Made by a program: the position numbers and the translations under genes. Positions 7,896 through 16,500 of a stretch of 64,000 nucleotides of DNA are shown piece after piece. The notes below the pieces were generated by a model. The model had not been told where the DNA came from, made no database searches, and saw only the letters and a list, made by a program, of their open reading frames with translations. Every line of letters begins with the position of its first letter. Within the stretch, counting starts at the first letter, position 1. This DNA is from Nitrospira sp. KM1 (GTDB lineage Bacteria > Nitrospirota > Nitrospiria > Nitrospirales > Nitrospiraceae): assembly GCF_011405515.1 (NCBI RefSeq), contig NZ_AP022671.1, positions 2,790,001 to 2,854,000 of the forward strand. Direction: 5' to 3'.

Positions 7896-9326
7896 ATGTC
7901 CAAAGGTTCCGGATCGGTATTCTTATCAGGCCGGCTTCAATCTGCACGGTCGGTCGCACTTGCCGTATTGATCCAATCGGTAGAATCCGGTGAGGGCGTC
8001 GACCTTCTGCTCGACCGCGCCCTCGACCATTCTTCATTGGATAAAAGAGATCGCGCGTTGATGATGGAACTTACCTATGGAGTCCTGAGGCGGCAGGGAA
8101 CGATCGACTGGCGGCTTACACCGGTGCTCGACAAACCGATGCGCCGGCTTCCTGTGATGGTCCAAATGCTGCTGAGAATGGCAACGTATCAGTTGCTATT
8201 TTTGGATCGCATTCCCCCCTCGGCGGCCGTGAACGAGTCTGTACGTCTGGCCAAGGCTGCCACAAAAACTTTGGGACGAGATTGGAGCGGGTTCGTCAAT
8301 GCCGTGCTGCGTTCATTGATTCGTGAGCCGGTACCTCCATGGCCATCGGTGGATGATGATCCGACTGCGGCCTTGGCCGTCCGGTATTCGGTGCCCGAAT
8401 GGCTGAGCCGCCGATGGATCGATCGGTTGGGGATCAGGGCCGCCGAGGCCTCCTGTGAGCAGGCCGGGACGATTCCTCCGGTCACGATCCGTGTGAATCG
8501 TCTGAGGACGACCCGGGATGAATTTCTCGGCCGGTTGATTGAAGCCGGCGTGAACGCCATTTCAACAATCGTCAGTCCGTGGGGGATTGTCCTGAAAGAC
8601 TGCGGCGCAATCCGATCGCTCCCGGGATTCGAGGAAGGGATGTTTTATGTCGAGGATGAAGGGGCGCAGATGATTCCTCTTGTGCTCGATCCCCGTCCCG
8701 GCGAGGCGGTTCTCGACGCCTGCGCGGCGCCGGGAGGAAAGGCGACCCATCTCGCGGAAATCATGAGCGACAACGGATTGATTTACGCAGTCGATCGACA
8801 CAAGGCGAGGGTCGATTTGCTAAAAGCCAATTGCCGCCGGCTGGGGATCAACAGCGTGATGCCGGTCGTCGGTGATGCCAGGCGGCAGTGCGAGTGGTCG
8901 GTGACCGAAGACGACAGAGGCGACGCGCGTCTTCCGGCGACCTTCGACCGCATTCTCGTTGATGCGCCATGCAGCGGGCTAGGTGTCTTGCGGCGACATC
9001 CGGAATCGAAGTGGCGCAAGCAGGATTCGAGCTTCGAGCGGCATCAACTTCTGCAGCTGGAAATACTGCGCTCAGCGGCCGTCAGCTTGCGACCCGGCGG
9101 GACGCTGGTCTATAGTACGTGTTCGACCGAGCCGGACGAAAACGAAATCGTGATCGAGAAATTTCTCTCTACCCACGGGGGGTTCCGGCGTGAGTCCGCG
9201 GCGCCGTGGCTTCCCGCCATCGCTCGGGATCATTTCCTGACACCCGGGGGTGCGTATTCGACTGAAGGGAATCTGTATTCCATGGATGTGTTTTTCGCCG
9301 CACGGCTCAGAAAGCGACTCGCATGA
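7896..9326 (+). CDS. rsmB: 16S rRNA m5C967 methyltransferase RsmB (Sun)
   Basis: Methylates cytosine 967 of 16S rRNA with S-adenosylmethionine. In the 476 residues an N-terminal NusB-like all-helical RNA-binding domain (about 15-150) precedes the Rossmann methyltransferase domain. The SAM loop is LDACAAPGGK (273-282); the two family cysteines are C359 in DAPCSG and C409 in YSTCS, the latter the nucleophile position in m5C enzymes. The protein is somewhat longer than the E. coli enzyme. The ATG at 7896 follows fmt by 27 bases and its stop overlaps the rpe start (ATGA), so translation is coupled. Confidence 0.95.
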   Translation: MSKGSGSVFLSGRLQSARSVALAVLIQSVESGEGVDLLLDRALDHSSLDKRDRALMMELTYGVLRRQGTIDWRLTPVLDKPMRRLPVMVQMLLRMATYQLLFLDRIPPSAAVNESVRLAKAATKTLGRDWSGFVNAVLRSLIREPVPPWPSVDDDPTAALAVRYSVPEWLSRRWIDRLGIRAAEASCEQAGTIPPVTIRVNRLRTTRDEFLGRLIEAGVNAISTIVSPWGIVLKDCGAIRSLPGFEEGMFYVEDEGAQMIPLVLDPRPGEAVLDACAAPGGKATHLAEIMSDNGLIYAVDRHKARVDLLKANCRRLGINSVMPVVGDARRQCEWSVTEDDRGDARLPATFDRILVDAPCSGLGVLRRHPESKWRKQDSSFERHQLLQLEILRSAAVSLRPGGTLVYSTCSTEPDENEIVIEKFLSTHGGFRRESAAPWLPAIARDHFLTPGGAYSTEGNLYSMDVFFAARLRKRLA

Positions 9327-10006
9327 CCCGATCCGTCCACATCGCTCCTTCGATCTTGTCCGCTGATTTTGCGCGGCTGGCAGAAGAGGTTGGCGCGGTC
9401 GAACGGGGCGGGGCCGACTTGCTGCACGTCGACGTCATGGACGGCCATTTTGTTCCCAACCTGACCGTGGGCCCTCCAATCGTCGAATCGTTGAGAAAAG
9501 TCACCAAGCTCCCGTTGGACGTGCATCTCATGATTACCAATGCCGATGCGTTCATTGCAGAGTTCGCTTCGGCCGGTGCGGACTACATGACGGTGCACGT
9601 GGAGGCCTGCCCTCATTTGCACCGGACGATCCAAGCCATCAAAGAACATGGCGTGAAGGCAGGGGTGACGCTCAATCCTGCCACCTCTCTGCACACAATC
9701 GAGGAAATTCTTCCCTACGTCGATCTCGTCCTCATCATGTCGGTCAATCCAGGCTTCGGCGGCCAACAGTTCATCGAGTCGTCTCTGCAGAAAATAGCGG
9801 CTGTCCGGCGAATGCTCGACGAGATCCAGAGCTCGGCGCTCTTGGAAGTGGACGGAGGAATTAAAGTCAACAATGCCGCTCAGATCCTGGCCGCCGGTGC
9901 AGAAGTCCTCGTGGCCGGTTCCGCTGTCTTTACGAGCCGTGACTACGGCGCCACGATTGCTGCGTTGCGCGGCGCGGCGCATCCGGCCGCCTCTGCGCAG
10001 CGATAG
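9323..10006 (+). CDS. rpe: Ribulose-phosphate 3-epimerase
   Basis: Interconverts ribulose 5-phosphate and xylulose 5-phosphate in the pentose phosphate or Calvin pathway. The 227-residue TIM barrel shows the family markers MDGHFVPNLTVGP (metal and catalytic Asp), DVHLMI, and MSVNPGFGGQ near residue 145, with the C-terminal phosphate-binding segment DGGIKVNNA. The start overlaps the rsmB stop by four bases (ATGA). The arrangement rsmB-rpe is common in bacteria. pheS begins seven bases downstream. Confidence 0.95.
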   Translation: MTRSVHIAPSILSADFARLAEEVGAVERGGADLLHVDVMDGHFVPNLTVGPPIVESLRKVTKLPLDVHLMITNADAFIAEFASAGADYMTVHVEACPHLHRTIQAIKEHGVKAGVTLNPATSLHTIEEILPYVDLVLIMSVNPGFGGQQFIESSLQKIAAVRRMLDEIQSSALLEVDGGIKVNNAAQILAAGAEVLVAGSAVFTSRDYGATIAALRGAAHPAASAQR

Positions 10007-10013
10007 GCTTTGG

Positions 10014-11582
10014 GTGGATATTTCATTACTCATCGACAGCCTGCATCCTCTCGAAATCCGCGTGCTGACCGCGTTCGGCCAGCGGGTTGTCGCGGCGACG
10101 CTCGACTCGGAACAGCTGGCCGAGGTGACGGGGCTGGAACCATCGCAACTGAGCATGGCCGTCGAATGGCTGCTGGCGAAGTCGCTTCTCGTCATCGACA
10201 AAGAGACGATCACTCCGGTCGTCTCAATCACTCCAATCGGACAACAGTACCTTGATGCCTCCTCCCCGCTCGAACGGGTGCTCGCGGCCGCCCGTCAAGG
10301 AGCCGAAACCGGCCATCGCGTGACGATACAGGCTCTTCAATCTCAGGACGGGCTCGATTCTTCCCTCGTCAGCAAAGCCGTTGGCCGGCTCAAGAAAGAA
10401 GGCGCGCTGCTGATCGTGCAGGGTGGTTGCATCGAATCGACGGGACGGCCAAGCCCCACTGCTGAGCGGCTTCGAAGCCTGTTCCAAGAACTGCGCCACA
10501 GTCCGCGAGAGCTGCAAAGTTTTCCGGAGCCGGAGCGCCACGTCATTGAAGACTATGCAGTCAAGCGAGGTAATGCGAAAGAGCCGTTTCGGATCGACGA
10601 ACGCGTGGCCCGGGTATTCAAGCTTTCGGCCGAAGGCGTCACCGCGTCGGAACACCTGGTTGCACAAGGCGTTGCCGAGGAAGTCTCCCAACTCAGCCCT
10701 GAACTCCTCAAGGACGGAGGCTGGCGCAACAAGCGCTTCAGAAAATACACCATCAGTCTTCGGCCTCCAAGGATCGGAACCGGGAAAAAGCATCCATACC
10801 GAGAGTTTCTCGATTCGGTCAAGACCAAGCTGGTCAGCATGGGCTTCCTCGAAATGCGCGGCTCGCTGGTCGAGACCGAATTCTGGAACATGGACGCCTT
10901 GTTCATGCCGCAGTTTCATCCCGCCCGTGACATTCATGACGTGTACTTCGTCAAAGAGCCGACACATGCCGGGCACATTGCCGAGCCGTTTCTGACTCGC
11001 GTCGGCCAGACGCATCAGAACGGGGGAACCACGACGGGGTCGACCGGATGGGGTTATCCGTTTGATGCCGAGCGGGCGAAGCGGTTGGTCTTGAGAAGCC
11101 AAGGGACGGCCGTTTCTGCGAGGACGTTGGCGGCTACTCCAGCGACGCCGGGGAAATACTTCTCGATCGCGCGCTGTTTCCGTTATGACCAGGTCGACGC
11201 GACGCACGCGACGGACTTTTTCCAGGTGGAGGGCATCGTGCTCGGAGCGGACATTAATTTTCGAACCCTGCTCGGCCTGTTGAATCTCTTCGCTCGCGAG
11301 GTCGCGCAGGCAAGGGAAGTCAAATTCCTTCCCGCGTATTTTCCATTTACCGAGCCGTCCGTGGAACTGCACGTGCGCCATCCCCGACTCGGCTGGATGG
11401 AGTTGGGCGGAGCCGGGCTCTTTAGGCCCGAAGTCACGTTGCCGCTCGGCGTTGGAGTTCCCGTCATAGCGTGGGGGCTGGGGCTCGATCGTATGGCCAT
11501 GGTGGCACTGGGAATTCACGACATTCGCGAGCTTTTCACCGACAATCTGGAATTGATCAGAACCACCAAGGTCCCGCTGTAA
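10014..11582 (+). CDS. pheS: Phenylalanine-tRNA ligase alpha subunit, archaeal type
   Basis: Charges tRNA-Phe together with PheT. It has 522 residues, against about 340 for the usual bacterial alpha subunit. The first 170 or so residues form winged-helix-like modules, as in archaeal and eukaryotic cytosolic enzymes. The class II catalytic domain follows, with TGSTGWGYPFDAERAKRLVL and TAVSAR (archaeal-style), motif 2 ARCFRYDQVDATHATDFFQ and motif 3 AWGLGLDRMAM. I place the start at the GTG of 10014, seven bases after rpe, because the reading frame otherwise overlaps rpe by over 130 bases; the ribosome binding site is weak. It lies beside, but opposite to, the infC-rpmI-rplT cluster. Confidence 0.9.
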   Translation: MDISLLIDSLHPLEIRVLTAFGQRVVAATLDSEQLAEVTGLEPSQLSMAVEWLLAKSLLVIDKETITPVVSITPIGQQYLDASSPLERVLAAARQGAETGHRVTIQALQSQDGLDSSLVSKAVGRLKKEGALLIVQGGCIESTGRPSPTAERLRSLFQELRHSPRELQSFPEPERHVIEDYAVKRGNAKEPFRIDERVARVFKLSAEGVTASEHLVAQGVAEEVSQLSPELLKDGGWRNKRFRKYTISLRPPRIGTGKKHPYREFLDSVKTKLVSMGFLEMRGSLVETEFWNMDALFMPQFHPARDIHDVYFVKEPTHAGHIAEPFLTRVGQTHQNGGTTTGSTGWGYPFDAERAKRLVLRSQGTAVSARTLAATPATPGKYFSIARCFRYDQVDATHATDFFQVEGIVLGADINFRTLLGLLNLFAREVAQAREVKFLPAYFPFTEPSVELHVRHPRLGWMELGGAGLFRPEVTLPLGVGVPVIAWGLGLDRMAMVALGIHDIRELFTDNLELIRTTKVPL

Positions 11583-11601
11583 TGTAGATCGGACTACCGG
11601 C

Positions 11602-13326
11602 ATGCCCACTATTTCCATCTTTAAGCACGATTTTGAATCGCTGATCTTCGGCTACAGCCACTCACGGAAGACCATGGCCTTGGATCAGATCGAAGAGTGG
11701 CTGATGCTCGTGAAAGGGGAGTTAAAGGGACACAATGCGGAGACCGGTGAACTCCGCATTGAGCTCCAGGACAGCAACCGGCCGGACTTGTGGTGCTGCG
11801 AAGGCATCGCCAGGCAGATCCGGACCAAGCAGAAGGGCCGTCCCGGTCCGTATCCGTTCCTGAAGCGAAGGACTTCCGTTTCACGGAAGATACACGTGGC
11901 GGCGGGCCTGCGAACTGTCAGGCCGTTTATCGCCGCGTGCACCGCCAAGGGCTATCGTGTTACTGCCGAGGGGCTGGCTCAGCTCATTCAGACTCAGGAA
12001 AAACTCGCCGATATCTTCGGCCGGAAACGAAAGACTCTGTCGATCGGGCTGTATCGGCTCGCGAACATTCGCTTTCCTGTGACCTATACCTTGGTCAATC
12101 CGGATCAGGCCCGGTTTACTCCGCTGGGCATGGAAACCGTCATGACGCTGTCAGAAATTCTGATGGTGCATCCCAAGGGAATCGAGCACGGGCACATCCT
12201 GCAAGGACATGACCGCGTCCCGCTCCTTCACGATGCCAACGAGCAGGCATTGTCGTTTCCGCCGATCATCAACAGCCGCGAGATCGGGGAAATTCAGGTC
12301 GGCGACGAAGAACTGTTCGTGGAAGTCACGGGGATGGATTTGCCGATGGTCATGCTCACGCTCAATATCCTTGCGGCCAACCTGTCGGATCGAGGAGCCG
12401 CGATCGAGCCGGTCGAGATTCGGTATCCCTCTAAAACGGCCGTGGGGAAATCCGTACTGACGCCGCAAGATCTCGGGCGTCCTCTGGTGCTTCCGGTGAA
12501 AACAATCGAGCAATCGCTCGGGCAACCGCTCGGTGGTCCTGCCGTCAAGAAGGCGCTGGAAGTATACGGCTACGATGTGCAGGTCCGAAATGGAAAAGTA
12601 AAGGCGAAGTTGCCGCCGTTCCGCCAGGATTTGCTCCACGCCATGGACGTCGTGGAGGACGTGGCGATCAGCCGAGGGTATGCCGACTTTCTCCCCGTCA
12701 TGCCGTCCCAGTTCACCGTTGGTGGCCTCTCGCAGATCGAACAGCTGTCCGATCGATCCCGTGAGCTGATGGTTGGGATGGGCTTTCAGGAAATCATTTC
12801 TAATATTTTGGGATCGCCCAATGCCTATCGGGATTCTATGCGACTCGCAGGGACGGAATGGGGACGAATGGTGGAGGTCGATAATACGATGTCCATCAGC
12901 TTCTCCTGCTTGCGCCAATGGATGATCCCATCTCTTCTCAGAGTTGAGGCGGCCTCCAACAGAGCCTTCTATCCGCATCGCATGTTCGAAAGCGGGGAGG
13001 TGGCGATACCGGACGATTCACATGAGGTGGGGTCAGTCACGGCAACAGTGCTGGGGGCGGTCATGGCGCATGCTGCGGCGCATTTCTCCGAGATTCACTC
13101 CTGTTTGGATACCCTGCTCTATCATCTTGATCGGCCGTATACGCTCCAGCCGTTGGCGCACCCGTCGTTTCTCGATGGACGGGCGGGAAGAATTCTCTTG
13201 GAGGAGATGCCCGTTGGTCTGATAGGAGAATTACATCCCGAGGTGTTGGAACGTTGGCAGATCGGGGTGCCCGTCGTGGCGTTCGAGATCAATCTATCCC
13301 GGCTGCTTTCAGCCGCAGGGCGATGA
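11602..13326 (+). CDS. pheT: Phenylalanine-tRNA ligase beta subunit, archaeal type
   Basis: The partner of PheS: it carries the B3/B4 editing domain and the catalytically inert class II-like fold. At 574 residues it has the archaeal/eukaryotic length, not the nearly 800 residues of bacterial beta subunits; it lacks the N-terminal EMAP-like tRNA-binding domain and the C-terminal anticodon-binding fold. The opening MPTISIFKHDFESLI followed by ELQDSNRPDLW (archaeal enzymes have a similar D-x-NRPDLL) supports the type, and the B5-like region is near 270-350. The gene starts 19 bases after pheS, so the two are cotranscribed. Transcription ends at a strong hairpin overlapping its stop codon. Confidence 0.9.
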   Translation: MPTISIFKHDFESLIFGYSHSRKTMALDQIEEWLMLVKGELKGHNAETGELRIELQDSNRPDLWCCEGIARQIRTKQKGRPGPYPFLKRRTSVSRKIHVAAGLRTVRPFIAACTAKGYRVTAEGLAQLIQTQEKLADIFGRKRKTLSIGLYRLANIRFPVTYTLVNPDQARFTPLGMETVMTLSEILMVHPKGIEHGHILQGHDRVPLLHDANEQALSFPPIINSREIGEIQVGDEELFVEVTGMDLPMVMLTLNILAANLSDRGAAIEPVEIRYPSKTAVGKSVLTPQDLGRPLVLPVKTIEQSLGQPLGGPAVKKALEVYGYDVQVRNGKVKAKLPPFRQDLLHAMDVVEDVAISRGYADFLPVMPSQFTVGGLSQIEQLSDRSRELMVGMGFQEIISNILGSPNAYRDSMRLAGTEWGRMVEVDNTMSISFSCLRQWMIPSLLRVEAASNRAFYPHRMFESGEVAIPDDSHEVGSVTATVLGAVMAHAAAHFSEIHSCLDTLLYHLDRPYTLQPLAHPSFLDGRAGRILLEEMPVGLIGELHPEVLERWQIGVPVVAFEINLSRLLSAAGR

Positions 13327-13358
13327 CGGAGAGCGGTCGAACCGTCGCTCCGTCATCG
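13321..13358. terminator. Hairpin between convergent pheT and rplT
   Basis: CGATGACGGAG (13321-13331) pairs perfectly with CTCCGTCATCG (13348-13358), and a further four pairs form inside. It includes the pheT stop codon and lies between genes that meet tail to tail, so it could end transcription from both sides. There is no T-run on either side, so factor-independent termination is not assured. Confidence 0.5.
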
Positions 13359-13393
13359 TGGATCCCGAATCGTGCAGCAGTGTTCCGTGCGAA

Positions 13394-13762
13394 CTACGCG
13401 GAGGCGGGAGTCAGGTGCTGCTTGGCTAAGCCGACAAGTTGTTCGAATCCCGGAGCATCCTTGATCGCCATGTCGGACAACACTTTCCTGTCGAGCAGGA
13501 CATTGGCCTTTTTCAACGCGTTGATGAACCGGCCGTAAGTCAGTCCGTGTGCTCTGGTCGCCGCGCTGATCCGTGCAATCCACAATTGCCGGAATTCCCG
13601 CTTACGATTCTTCCGTCCCGTGTACGCGTACTGTTGACCCTTGTCGACCGACTCCGTGGCTGATCGGAACAGACGGCTTTTTGCTCCGTACTGTCCCTTA
13701 GCCAGCTTCAGCCTCTTCTTACGTCTGGCCCGTGTTTTAGGTCCGCCTTTTGCGCGTGGCAT
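13394..13762 (-). CDS. rplT: 50S ribosomal protein L20
   Basis: L20 binds 23S rRNA early in large-subunit assembly and in many bacteria represses its own operon. The 122 residues show the basic N-terminal extension (MPRAKGGPKTRARRKKRLKL) and the globular domain with RKRREFRQLWI-like order (here KNRKREFRQLWIARISAA) and GLTYGRFINAL. The length is typical. It is the last gene of the thrS-infC-rpmI-rplT run and lies 49 bases after rpmI. The usual downstream bacterial pheST is absent on this strand. Confidence 0.97.
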   Translation of the reverse strand: MPRAKGGPKTRARRKKRLKLAKGQYGAKSRLFRSATESVDKGQQYAYTGRKNRKREFRQLWIARISAATRAHGLTYGRFINALKKANVLLDRKVLSDMAIKDAPGFEQLVGLAKQHLTPASA

Positions 13763-13811: not shown

Positions 13812-14006
13812 TTAGGCGTACGGTAACAACCGGCCCAAGGCGGCGGTTTTCGTGCTATCGACCACGACCGAGCCGCTCAAGCGCCGTTTACGCTCCCGGT
13901 TCTTGCTCGTGAGGATATGCCGTTTGCCGGCCTTCTTGCGTAAAAACTTTCCGGTTCCCGTTTTATGAAACCGCTTGCTCGCTCCGCTGTGGGACTTCAT
14001 TTTCAT
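13812..14006 (-). CDS. rpmI: 50S ribosomal protein L35
   Basis: A small, very basic large-subunit protein of 64 residues with the typical [20 protein letters not shown] opening and [14 protein letters not shown] core. It lies between infC and rplT in the conserved translational operon and has the normal length. Confidence 0.96.
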
Positions 14007-14045: not shown

Positions 14046-14555
14046 TTAATTTTTGGGGGCGACGATCATGATGAGGCTGCGGCCTTCCATGCGGGGGGCG
14101 TATTCGATGGTACCCGTTTCCGAGAGCTCCTGAATGACGGCATTCATGACGGTGCGCCCCATCTCCTGATTGGCCATTTCACGGCCGCGATAGGTGAGCG
14201 TGACCTTCGTCTTATTCCCTTCTTCCAAAAACCCTTTGATCTGACGGACTTTGATTTCCAAATCGTGCTTGTCGGTACGCGGTCGGAGCTTGATCTCCTT
14301 GACCTGCGTGGATTTCTGGTGCCGTCGGCTTTGATGGTCCTTCTTGCTCAGCTCATACTTGTATTTTCCGTAGTCCATGATGCGACACACGGGTGGAACC
14401 GATGTGGGTGCAACCTCGACCAGGTCGTACCCATTCTCCTGCGCCTGCCTGAACGCCTCCGGTGTAGGAAGAATTCCAAGCTGTTCACCTTCTGCCCCGA
14501 TGACTCGGACTTCACGAACACGGATTTCGCGGTTCACGCGTAGTTTGGGGACGAT
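14046..14555 (-). CDS. infC: Translation initiation factor IF-3, probable AUC start
   Basis: IF-3 binds the 30S subunit and rejects wrong start codons and elongator tRNAs. From an ATC at 14555-14553 the product has 169 residues: basic N-terminus (VPKLRVNREIRVREVRVIG), N-domain to about 75, linker helix, and C-domain with GKYKYELSKK and LRPRTDKHD. I prefer the ATC because GAGAGGTGG sits at the right distance upstream, whereas the in-frame GTG six codons later (14537) has no ribosome binding site and would cut into the conserved LRVN-E-IR segment. A rare AUU/AUC-type start is the known basis of IF-3 autoregulation in other bacteria. thrS ends 10 bases upstream, so the genes are coupled. Confidence 0.93.
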   Translation of the reverse strand: MVPKLRVNREIRVREVRVIGAEGEQLGILPTPEAFRQAQENGYDLVEVAPTSVPPVCRIMDYGKYKYELSKKDHQSRRHQKSTQVKEIKLRPRTDKHDLEIKVRQIKGFLEEGNKTKVTLTYRGREMANQEMGRTVMNAVIQELSETGTIEYAPRMEGRSLIMIVAPKN

Positions 14556-14565
14556 AGGCCACCTC

Positions 14566-16500
14566 TCATGATGTGGGTGAATGTTGCTGTGTGGATCGAT
14601 TCGCTTCAGCTCTCAACAAGTCGAGGGCTCCGGCAATCGTCATGGTTCCGAGATTGGCGCCGCTGCGCCCGCGGACGGAAAGGCTCCGGCTCTGAACTTC
14701 GCGGTCGCCGACGACGAACATAAATGGAATCTTCGCCTTTTCCGCCTCTCGAATCTTCAGACCGATCTTCTCGTTGCGGAGGTCGGCTTCGACTCGCAAG
14801 CCGGCGGCCTTCATCTCGGCGACGACCGTACCGACGAACTCACGTTGCTGATCCGTGATCGACATGACAATGGCCTGGACCGGTGCGAGCCAGACGGGAA
14901 ACGCACCCCCGTAATGCTCGATCAAGATGCCGAAAAATCGCTCGATCGAACCCATAAGCGCCCGATGGATCATGATCGGCTGGTGAGGCTTTCCGTCTTC
15001 GCCGATGTACCGAAGTTCAAACCGCTCAGGATTGTTGAAGTCGATCTGAATGGTCGAGCACTGCCACGATCGTCCCAGGGCGTCCTTGATCTTGATGTCG
15101 ATTTTCGGGCCGTAAAAGGCCCCGCCCCCCGGGTCCAGATGAAAAGCGATCTCTCGTCCCTTGAGCGCCGCTTCAAGCGCGCTGGTAGCCAAAGTCCAAT
15201 GCTCGTCGGCGCCGACCGATTCCTTGGGTCTCGTAGACAGGAACACTTCGAACTCGTTGAACCCGAAGGTCCGCAGAATAAAGAACGTGAAATCCAGTAC
15301 GCGACTGACTTCGGTTTCAATTTGATCAGGCCGGCAAAACAGATGGGCGTCGTCCTGCGTGAAGCCTCGGACACGAAGCAGTCCGTGAAGCACACCCGTC
15401 CGTTCGTATCGGTAGACGGTTCCCAACTCACCGTAGCGGATGGGCAGGTCGCGATAACTGCGGAGGTGTGATTTATAGATCATGATGTGATAAGGGCAAT
15501 TCATCGGCTTCAACTGATACTCGCTGCCCTCAAGCTTCATGGACGCGAACATGTTTTCGCGGTAGTAGTCCACGTGACCGCTGGTTTTCCACAGATCCAG
15601 GCGCGCCACATGGGGCGAATACACCAGTTCGTATCCATCCTTGAGGTGCTGTTCACGCCAAAAATTCTCAATAAGCAACCGGATCGCAGCGCCCTTGGGA
15701 TGCCATAGGACCAAGCCCGGTCCGATTTCGTCTTGAACGGAAATCAGGTCCAGCTCCTTGCCGACCTTGCGGTGATCGCGCCGTTTGATCTCCTCCAGCC
15801 GGGCCATATGCGCATCGAGCTCGGTCTTGGTAGGAAACGACGTGCCATAGATCCGTTGCAGCATTGGATTGCGCTCGTCGCCACGCCAATAGGCACCGGC
15901 CGTCGTCAGAAGCTTGAAAGCCCCGATATGGCCTGTCGAGGGAAGGTGCGGACCGCGGCAGAGGTCGACGAAATCTCCCTGGGTGTAGGCTGAGATGGGT
16001 TCATGATCAGGGAAGCCTTTGATGAGTTCGACTTTGTAGTGTTCGCCCCGGGATTGAAAGAAGTCGATCGCTTCTTGTTTGGAAAATTCACGTCTGGAGA
16101 TCGGAAGCTTGCGCTTGGCGATCTCCAAGGCCCGGGCTTCGATCTTTTCCAAATCTTCAGGTGTGAACGGACGATCGAACGCGAAGTCGTAATAGAAGCT
16201 ATCTTCAAGCGCGGGACCGATGGTCAATTGGGCGTTTGGAAACAGTTCCTTGACTGCCTGAGCCATGAGGTGGGTGCTGCTGTGACGATAGACTTCACGG
16301 CCCTCGACACTGTTAAAATGTAGCGGGTCTATAACGGAATCGGCGGTCAGGACGGCGGACAGATCAGTCGGTTGACCGTTGACATTCGCGGCCAGAAGAT
16401 CCGAACCGACTGGGACGCCAGCCAGTGCGAGGGCCTGCGCGACCGTCTGGCCGCTGGGAACATCAAGGACCGCCCCGTTTTTAAAAGTCACTTTAGGCAC
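14566..16500 (-). CDS. thrS: Threonine-tRNA ligase
   Basis: Charges tRNA-Thr and edits Ser-tRNA(Thr). The 644 residues carry all the bacterial domains: TGS (about 1-62), the editing domain with HSSTHLMAQ near 73-81 and further His/Cys around 180-190, the zinc-dependent class II core with MNCPYH (zinc Cys), GTVYRYERTGVLHGLLRVRG (motif 2) and a motif 3 region, and the C-terminal anticodon-binding domain from about 540. The start is GTG at 16500 with GGAAAG upstream. It is the promoter-proximal gene of the thrS-infC-rpmI-rplT operon. Confidence 0.96.
   Translation of the reverse strand: MPKVTFKNGAVLDVPSGQTVAQALALAGVPVGSDLLAANVNGQPTDLSAVLTADSVIDPLHFNSVEGREVYRHSSTHLMAQAVKELFPNAQLTIGPALEDSFYYDFAFDRPFTPEDLEKIEARALEIAKRKLPISRREFSKQEAIDFFQSRGEHYKVELIKGFPDHEPISAYTQGDFVDLCRGPHLPSTGHIGAFKLLTTAGAYWRGDERNPMLQRIYGTSFPTKTELDAHMARLEEIKRRDHRKVGKELDLISVQDEIGPGLVLWHPKGAAIRLLIENFWREQHLKDGYELVYSPHVARLDLWKTSGHVDYYRENMFASMKLEGSEYQLKPMNCPYHIMIYKSHLRSYRDLPIRYGELGTVYRYERTGVLHGLLRVRGFTQDDAHLFCRPDQIETEVSRVLDFTFFILRTFGFNEFEVFLSTRPKESVGADEHWTLATSALEAALKGREIAFHLDPGGGAFYGPKIDIKIKDALGRSWQCSTIQIDFNNPERFELRYIGEDGKPHQPIMIHRALMGSIERFFGILIEHYGGAFPVWLAPVQAIVMSITDQQREFVGTVVAEMKAAGLRVEADLRNEKIGLKIREAEKAKIPFMFVVGDREVQSRSLSVRGRSGANLGTMTIAGALDLLRAEANRSTQQHSPTS

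Follow-up and report, generated by a model that had tools for sequence, protein, structure and literature searches.

An archaeal-type phenylalanyl-tRNA synthetase is the sole PheRS of a Nitrospira genome and a trait of a deep Nitrospirota clade

The window, a stretch of 64,000 nucleotides of the Nitrospira sp. KM1 chromosome, encodes a phenylalanyl-tRNA synthetase (PheRS) of the archaeal/eukaryal type, which is the sole PheRS of this genome. Very probably, it is the ordinary enzyme of the cell, and its history was one of archaeal acquisition, loss of the bacterial pheST and later transfer within the phylum.

The pheS-pheT pair lies on the forward strand and converges with the rplT-rpmI-infC-thrS block on the reverse strand:

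9323..10006, + strand: rpe (TIGR01163, 312.8 bits), found upstream of pheST in many archaeal-type lineages
10014..11582, + strand: pheS, archaeal/eukaryal-type PheRS alpha subunit, 522 aa (NF003210, PF01409)
11602..13326, + strand: pheT, archaeal/eukaryal-type PheRS beta subunit, 574 aa (TIGR00471, 2cxi alignment)
13321..13358, no strand assigned: terminator-like inverted repeat between pheT and rplT, overlapping the pheT stop (weak evidence, RNA fold)
13394..13762, - strand: rplT (L20; TIGR01032, 151.7 bits), convergent with pheT
13812..14006, - strand: rpmI (L35; TIGR00001, 82.2 bits)
14046..14537, - strand: infC (IF-3; TIGR00168, 223 bits)
14566..16500, - strand: thrS, threonine--tRNA ligase (TIGR00418, 723.6 bits)

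The GTG start of pheS lies 7 bases past the stop codon of rpe. The resulting N-terminus, VDIS-LIDSLHPLE, is GTG-initiated in several Nitrospira relatives too, which supported this start. PheS matched the archaeal-type model NF003210 (NCBIfam) over its full length (552.6 bits, residues 9-520), and the class II core PF01409 (Pfam) was detected in it. PheT scored 449.6 bits over residues 1-569 against TIGR00471 (pheT_arch, NCBIfam), the cut-off being 282.65. Its match to pheT_bact, 103 bits, was far under the cut-off of 402.65 and covered the shared core only (profile positions 410-694).

B5 and CLM were the only Pfam domains above cut-off in PheT; Pfam found neither the EMAP-like tRNA-binding (B2) domain nor the C-terminal FDX-ACB (B8) domain. 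The chain of 2cxi, a structure of P. horikoshii PheT, aligned end to end (1-348) with PheT residues 1-360, PPIIN motif included. Because the alignment spans these residues, the B3/4 editing region appears to be present. The sequence-only reading, which had described an archaeal-type PheS of 522 and PheT of 574 residues with no EMAP-like or anticodon-binding extensions in PheT, was thus right about coordinates, sizes, type and domains.

Judged from these matches, the pair encodes a complete PheRS, an ordinary member of the archaeal/eukaryal-type family. The subunit sizes also fit this family, in which PheS has about 500 aa with an N-terminal domain and PheT about 550-600 aa. PheS is predicted to carry the class II active site, and PheT the editing region and a catalytic-like domain. 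By analogy, the subunits would assemble as alpha2beta2. Aminoacylation of tRNA-Phe by this enzyme is the expected function of a sole copy in a conserved family.

The inverted repeat behind pheT may act as a terminator for both strands, pheT and rplT being convergent. RNA folding of positions 13318-13385 gave -29.5 kcal/mol (z -2.1), and 6 of 200 shuffles were equally stable.

The genome is closed, a single contig of 4,509,223 bases (4.51 Mb). It contained one PheS catalytic core, the window's own, and the pheT_bact profile search found no bacterial-type pheT over cut-off. The second match to this profile (25 bits, in a 693-aa frame) was confined to the profile's tRNA-binding region. The failure to find a bacterial pheST in the rest of the genome supported the functional replacement that had been proposed from the sequence.

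The pair might have been a spare or resistance-type second PheRS alongside a native bacterial enzyme, as such duplicates exist and two cyanobacteria carry both types. Since the genome has a single PheS core and lacks a bacterial pheT, no family among the 295 sampled Nitrospirota genomes holds both PheT types, and plasmids gave no archaeal-type match, we regard this as improbable to the point of being negligible; a spare second PheRS is ruled out for the Nitrospira genome, provided that the closed assembly is correct. All 10 plasmid matches to pheT were partial (41-50% of the query) with 23-25% identity, as would be expected from bacterial-type pheT. In viral contigs, a strict test for the exact PheRS motif found none. 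An origin of the pair in a mobile element was rejected on these two results.

The origin of the enzyme was examined in trees of archaeal sequences and of bacterial ones other than those of spirochaetes. In the concatenated PheS+PheT tree, the Nitrospirota, two Planctomycetota and the Fermentibacterota formed one clade (100/100), which joined Thermococcus, Methanofastidiosia, a DPANN lineage and Aenigmatarchaeota (100/100). When bacterial PheS served as the root, the PheS tree had the Nitrospirota clade within Archaea, as sister to relatives from Thermococcus, Methanofastidiosia and DPANN (100/100). The direction of transfer was therefore from archaea to bacteria. The archaeal origin claimed earlier was therefore borne out, and clustering with bacterial enzymes was not seen.

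The clade could alternatively be an ancient bacterial PheRS that predates the bacterial/archaeal split, with no transfer at all. The unrooted trees, taken alone, are compatible with this. It is nevertheless very unlikely, since the bacterial-rooted PheS tree nests the clade in Archaea at several supported levels, and other Nitrospirota retain a bacterial pheST in the operon slot.

The archaeal-type sequences of WOR-3, the remaining archaeal-type Planctomycetota and the Myxococcota formed a second clade elsewhere in Archaea. A single clade of all bacterial rows was rejected (AU p = 1.6e-99). The enzyme of this second group was independently acquired, separately from the Nitrospirota type. The two Planctomycetota with a PheRS of the Nitrospirota kind differ from the other archaeal-type Planctomycetota, so that this phylum contains both archaeal-type clades. 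They were placed beside or inside the Nitrospirota clade, and a Nitrospirota-only grouping was not rejected (p 0.29). With this uncertain placement, the first bacterial recipient may have been other than the Nitrospirota ancestor.

The nearest genome by rpoB belongs to the same genus (97% identical), the window PheRS was placed among Nitrospira, including N. moscoviensis, and each of the 21 near-relative genomes had pheT_arch over cut-off. Across the Nitrospirota sample it was over cut-off in 164 of 295 genomes, and pheT_bact in 119 of 295. Archaeal-type families were f1-f12, which make up the window's class, and f13, f14, f17, f20, f21 and f38; bacterial-type families included f15, f16, f18, f22 and others. 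Archaeal-type PheRS is therefore a trait of a deep Nitrospirota clade, beyond one chromosome.

Elsewhere, pheT_arch was over cut-off in 37 of 42 Fermentibacterota genomes, in 18 of 119 Planctomycetota genomes (20 matching at E 1e-60 or better), and, in the phylum to which a Myxococcota-assigned genome belongs, in 7 of 140 genomes. The archaeal-type bacterial genomes that were checked had no bacterial pheT, two cyanobacteria excepted. The rarity in bacteria asserted by the sequence-only reading stood only in part. The type is patchy in its distribution rather than very rare.

In addition to an ordinary bacterial pheT, the two cyanobacteria, Tildeniella torsiva and Nodosilinea sp. P-1105, have genes for another PheS (about 509 aa) and PheT, which are archaeal-like and very divergent. 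The archaeal-like genes are on different contigs or far apart, and this second PheRS is possibly spare, resistance-type or changed in function. In most bacterial-type Nitrospirota families, PheT matched the profile from about position 157 of 798, in a frame of about 690-700 aa. These families thus seem to lack the tRNA-binding part at the N-terminus of PheT, which is present in f15 and f18.

Gene order differed between the two types. In four bacterial-type Nitrospirota genomes from four families, rplT-pheS-pheT were co-directional, and two of the four had the whole thrS-infC-rpmI-rplT-pheS-pheT series within the stretch examined. No rplT was within reach of the bacterial-type pheST in f15. For most of the archaeal-type class, and for f14, f20 and f21, the arrangement was that of the window: pheST was convergent on rplT-rpmI-infC-thrS and often preceded by rpe, and by fmt-rsmB. 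Some archaeal-type genomes (in f4, f7, f8, f13 and f17) had no rplT within reach of pheST. In one archaeal-type genome rplT was split across two frames, by sequencing error or frameshift. The convergent arrangement is an old feature, as it is common to most of the class and these three families. The earlier placement of the pair as converging on rplT, near the ancestral place of pheST, held.

Family f38 was different. In both of its genomes, which like those of f17 are fragmented assemblies, thrS-infC-rpmI-rplT-pheS-pheT ran in one direction and contained the archaeal pair. The rpoB tree placed f38 outside the archaeal-type core, branching at the base, and f17 with the bacterial-type f15 and f18. 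One clade of all archaeal-type carriers was rejected on rpoB (p 8e-4). So was a grouping of f38, f17 and f20 (p 8.5e-50). The p values for all these groupings are a guide only, because the groups were chosen after the trees were seen.

In the pheST tree, on the other hand, f38, f17 and f20 were together (96/92), inside the core, and holding the core separate from f38 and f17 was rejected (p 0.0026, again as a guide). The f38 thrS, infC and rplT fell outside the core (99/97), like rpoB, and their grouping with f20 was rejected (p 0.006, with the same caution). With thrS, infC, rplT and rpoB native but pheST grouping with another family, we interpreted f38 as a case of in-place replacement, in which a foreign pheST appears to have displaced the native pair inside the native operon. 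The donor was most likely inside Nitrospirota, as judged from the tree.

A single early gain was considered as an alternative. The archaeal type would have entered a single time, in the common ancestor of f38 and all other lineages except the f16/f22-like ones, f15 and f18 would have regained the bacterial type, and the in-slot order of f38 would be ancestral. This is in keeping with the basal position of f38 on rpoB and with its pair in the canonical slot, and on rpoB it is about equally costly, with at least 3 changes needed. We consider it rather unlikely, however, in view of the position of f38 and f17 PheST with f20 inside the core, the rejection of a core separate from them, and the rejection of f38 with f20 by both rpoB and thrS/infC/rplT.

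The sequence-only reading had taken the window's order as replacement near the original locus with inversion. Replacement and proximity stood; inversion is one possible route to an order that is old. A swap at the native pheST position with a subsequent local inversion is plausible, and we hold it tentatively, as somewhat doubtful. In its favour, pheS and pheT follow rplT in the same direction in the bacterial-type relatives, they lie next to rplT but inverted in the archaeal-type core, and f38 argues that the slot can be hit. Among the loci compared, however, no intermediates were seen, and f13 has rpe-pheST with no nearby rplT, so that pheST may have settled behind rpe first, the blocks meeting later. 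The f38 case is, moreover, a separate event: in-slot replacement probably did occur in the phylum, but in a family other than that of the window genome.

The tRNA was examined with the enzyme. Common determinants of tRNA-Phe are G34, A35, A36 and A73; yeast and A. pernix also use G20 for identity, and E. coli uses U20 and U59 (review of tRNA identity, PMC9976931). The tRNA-Phe(GAA) gene of the window's genome has G34, A35, A36, A73, U20 and U59, with the numbering assigned from sequence. In 29 of 30 genomes searched a tRNA-Phe was identified, with U at position 20, or C in f2 and f3. None of the 29 had G20 under either enzyme type. A genome whose sole PheRS is served by a U20/U59 tRNA-Phe suggested that the enzyme works without G20, and the Nitrospira PheRS is predicted to act on a bacterial tRNA-Phe.

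Co-evolution of tRNA-Phe with enzyme type was rejected, as U20 is kept under both types. The anticodon stem 27-31 is CAGCC in f1-f3 and GAGGC in most other Nitrospirota. With CAGCC limited to f1-f3, this change does not follow the gain of the archaeal type.

From the observed gene content, enzyme type, single copy, position in the trees, synteny and tRNA sequence we propose the following order of gains and losses, and a mechanism for the replacements. Long ago, pheS and pheT would have come jointly from a donor in the Thermococcus/Methanofastidiosia group of Archaea; the recipient would have been an ancestor of those Nitrospirota that include Nitrospira, or else a bacterial host before it. The bacterial pheST would then have been lost. 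In the Nitrospira lineage the archaeal pair would have ended up behind rpe, opposite thrS-infC-rpmI-rplT, and it would charge a tRNA-Phe retaining the bacterial U20 and U59. In a later transfer within the phylum, f38 would have received the pair at precisely the operon position of its bacterial pheST; f17 has the pair too.

More broadly, we lean towards the view that within Nitrospirota the archaeal and bacterial PheRS can stand in for each other, like alleles of a single essential function. The archaeal pair would have moved sideways between families, once into the exact native slot (f38), with tRNA-Phe unchanged as the enzyme needs no G20.

Inter-domain displacement of aminoacyl-tRNA synthetase genes was already known, and inter-domain replacement of PheRS is commonly presented as a spirochaete story. 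Our literature search, with subscription papers outside its coverage, found no earlier report on Nitrospirota PheRS. The sequence-only reading is extended here by the distribution, the two origins and the unusually clear in-slot case of f38. In Nitrospirota and Fermentibacterota the swap of this essential two-gene synthetase is phylum-scale; in other bacteria it happened independently. PheRS type can therefore mark lineages, and pheS needs care as a vertical marker. With native thrS-infC-rpmI-rplT followed by an apparently foreign, co-directional pheST, f38 offers a clean natural experiment on in-place swap of an essential gene pair. The unchanged tRNA-Phe makes cross-recognition between enzyme and tRNA directly testable.

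Compared with the bacterial-type PheRS of f15, f16, f18, f22 and other families, the window enzyme would catalyze the same reaction, and the rplT end of thrS-infC-rpmI-rplT is a shared genomic landmark in four of the families examined. The bacterial-type enzymes, in contrast, belong to the bacterial alpha/beta families and are co-directional with rplT where the block was found. The second bacterial clade (WOR-3, most archaeal-type Planctomycetota and Myxococcota) likewise has the archaeal type without a bacterial pheT in tested genomes, but from a separate origin.

Spirochaeta, Borrelia and Treponema have an archaeal-type PheRS, with subunits of 513-528 and 514-573 aa, closest to Thermococcales, and their phylum is divided between both PheRS types (Andam and Gogarten 2011, PMC3191353). 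The text of that paper mentions neither Nitrospira nor Leptospirillum. By its published description, the spirochaete system resembles the present one in both archaeal-type subunits, near sizes, Thermococcales affinity, a displaced bacterial enzyme and a split phylum; the phylum is a different one. The enzymes of Thermococcus and Methanofastidiosia share the two-subunit architecture and are the nearest archaeal relatives in the trees. Theirs, however, work in Archaea, and tRNA-Phe identity involves G20 in A. pernix, whereas tRNA-Phe of the Nitrospirota has U20 or C20.
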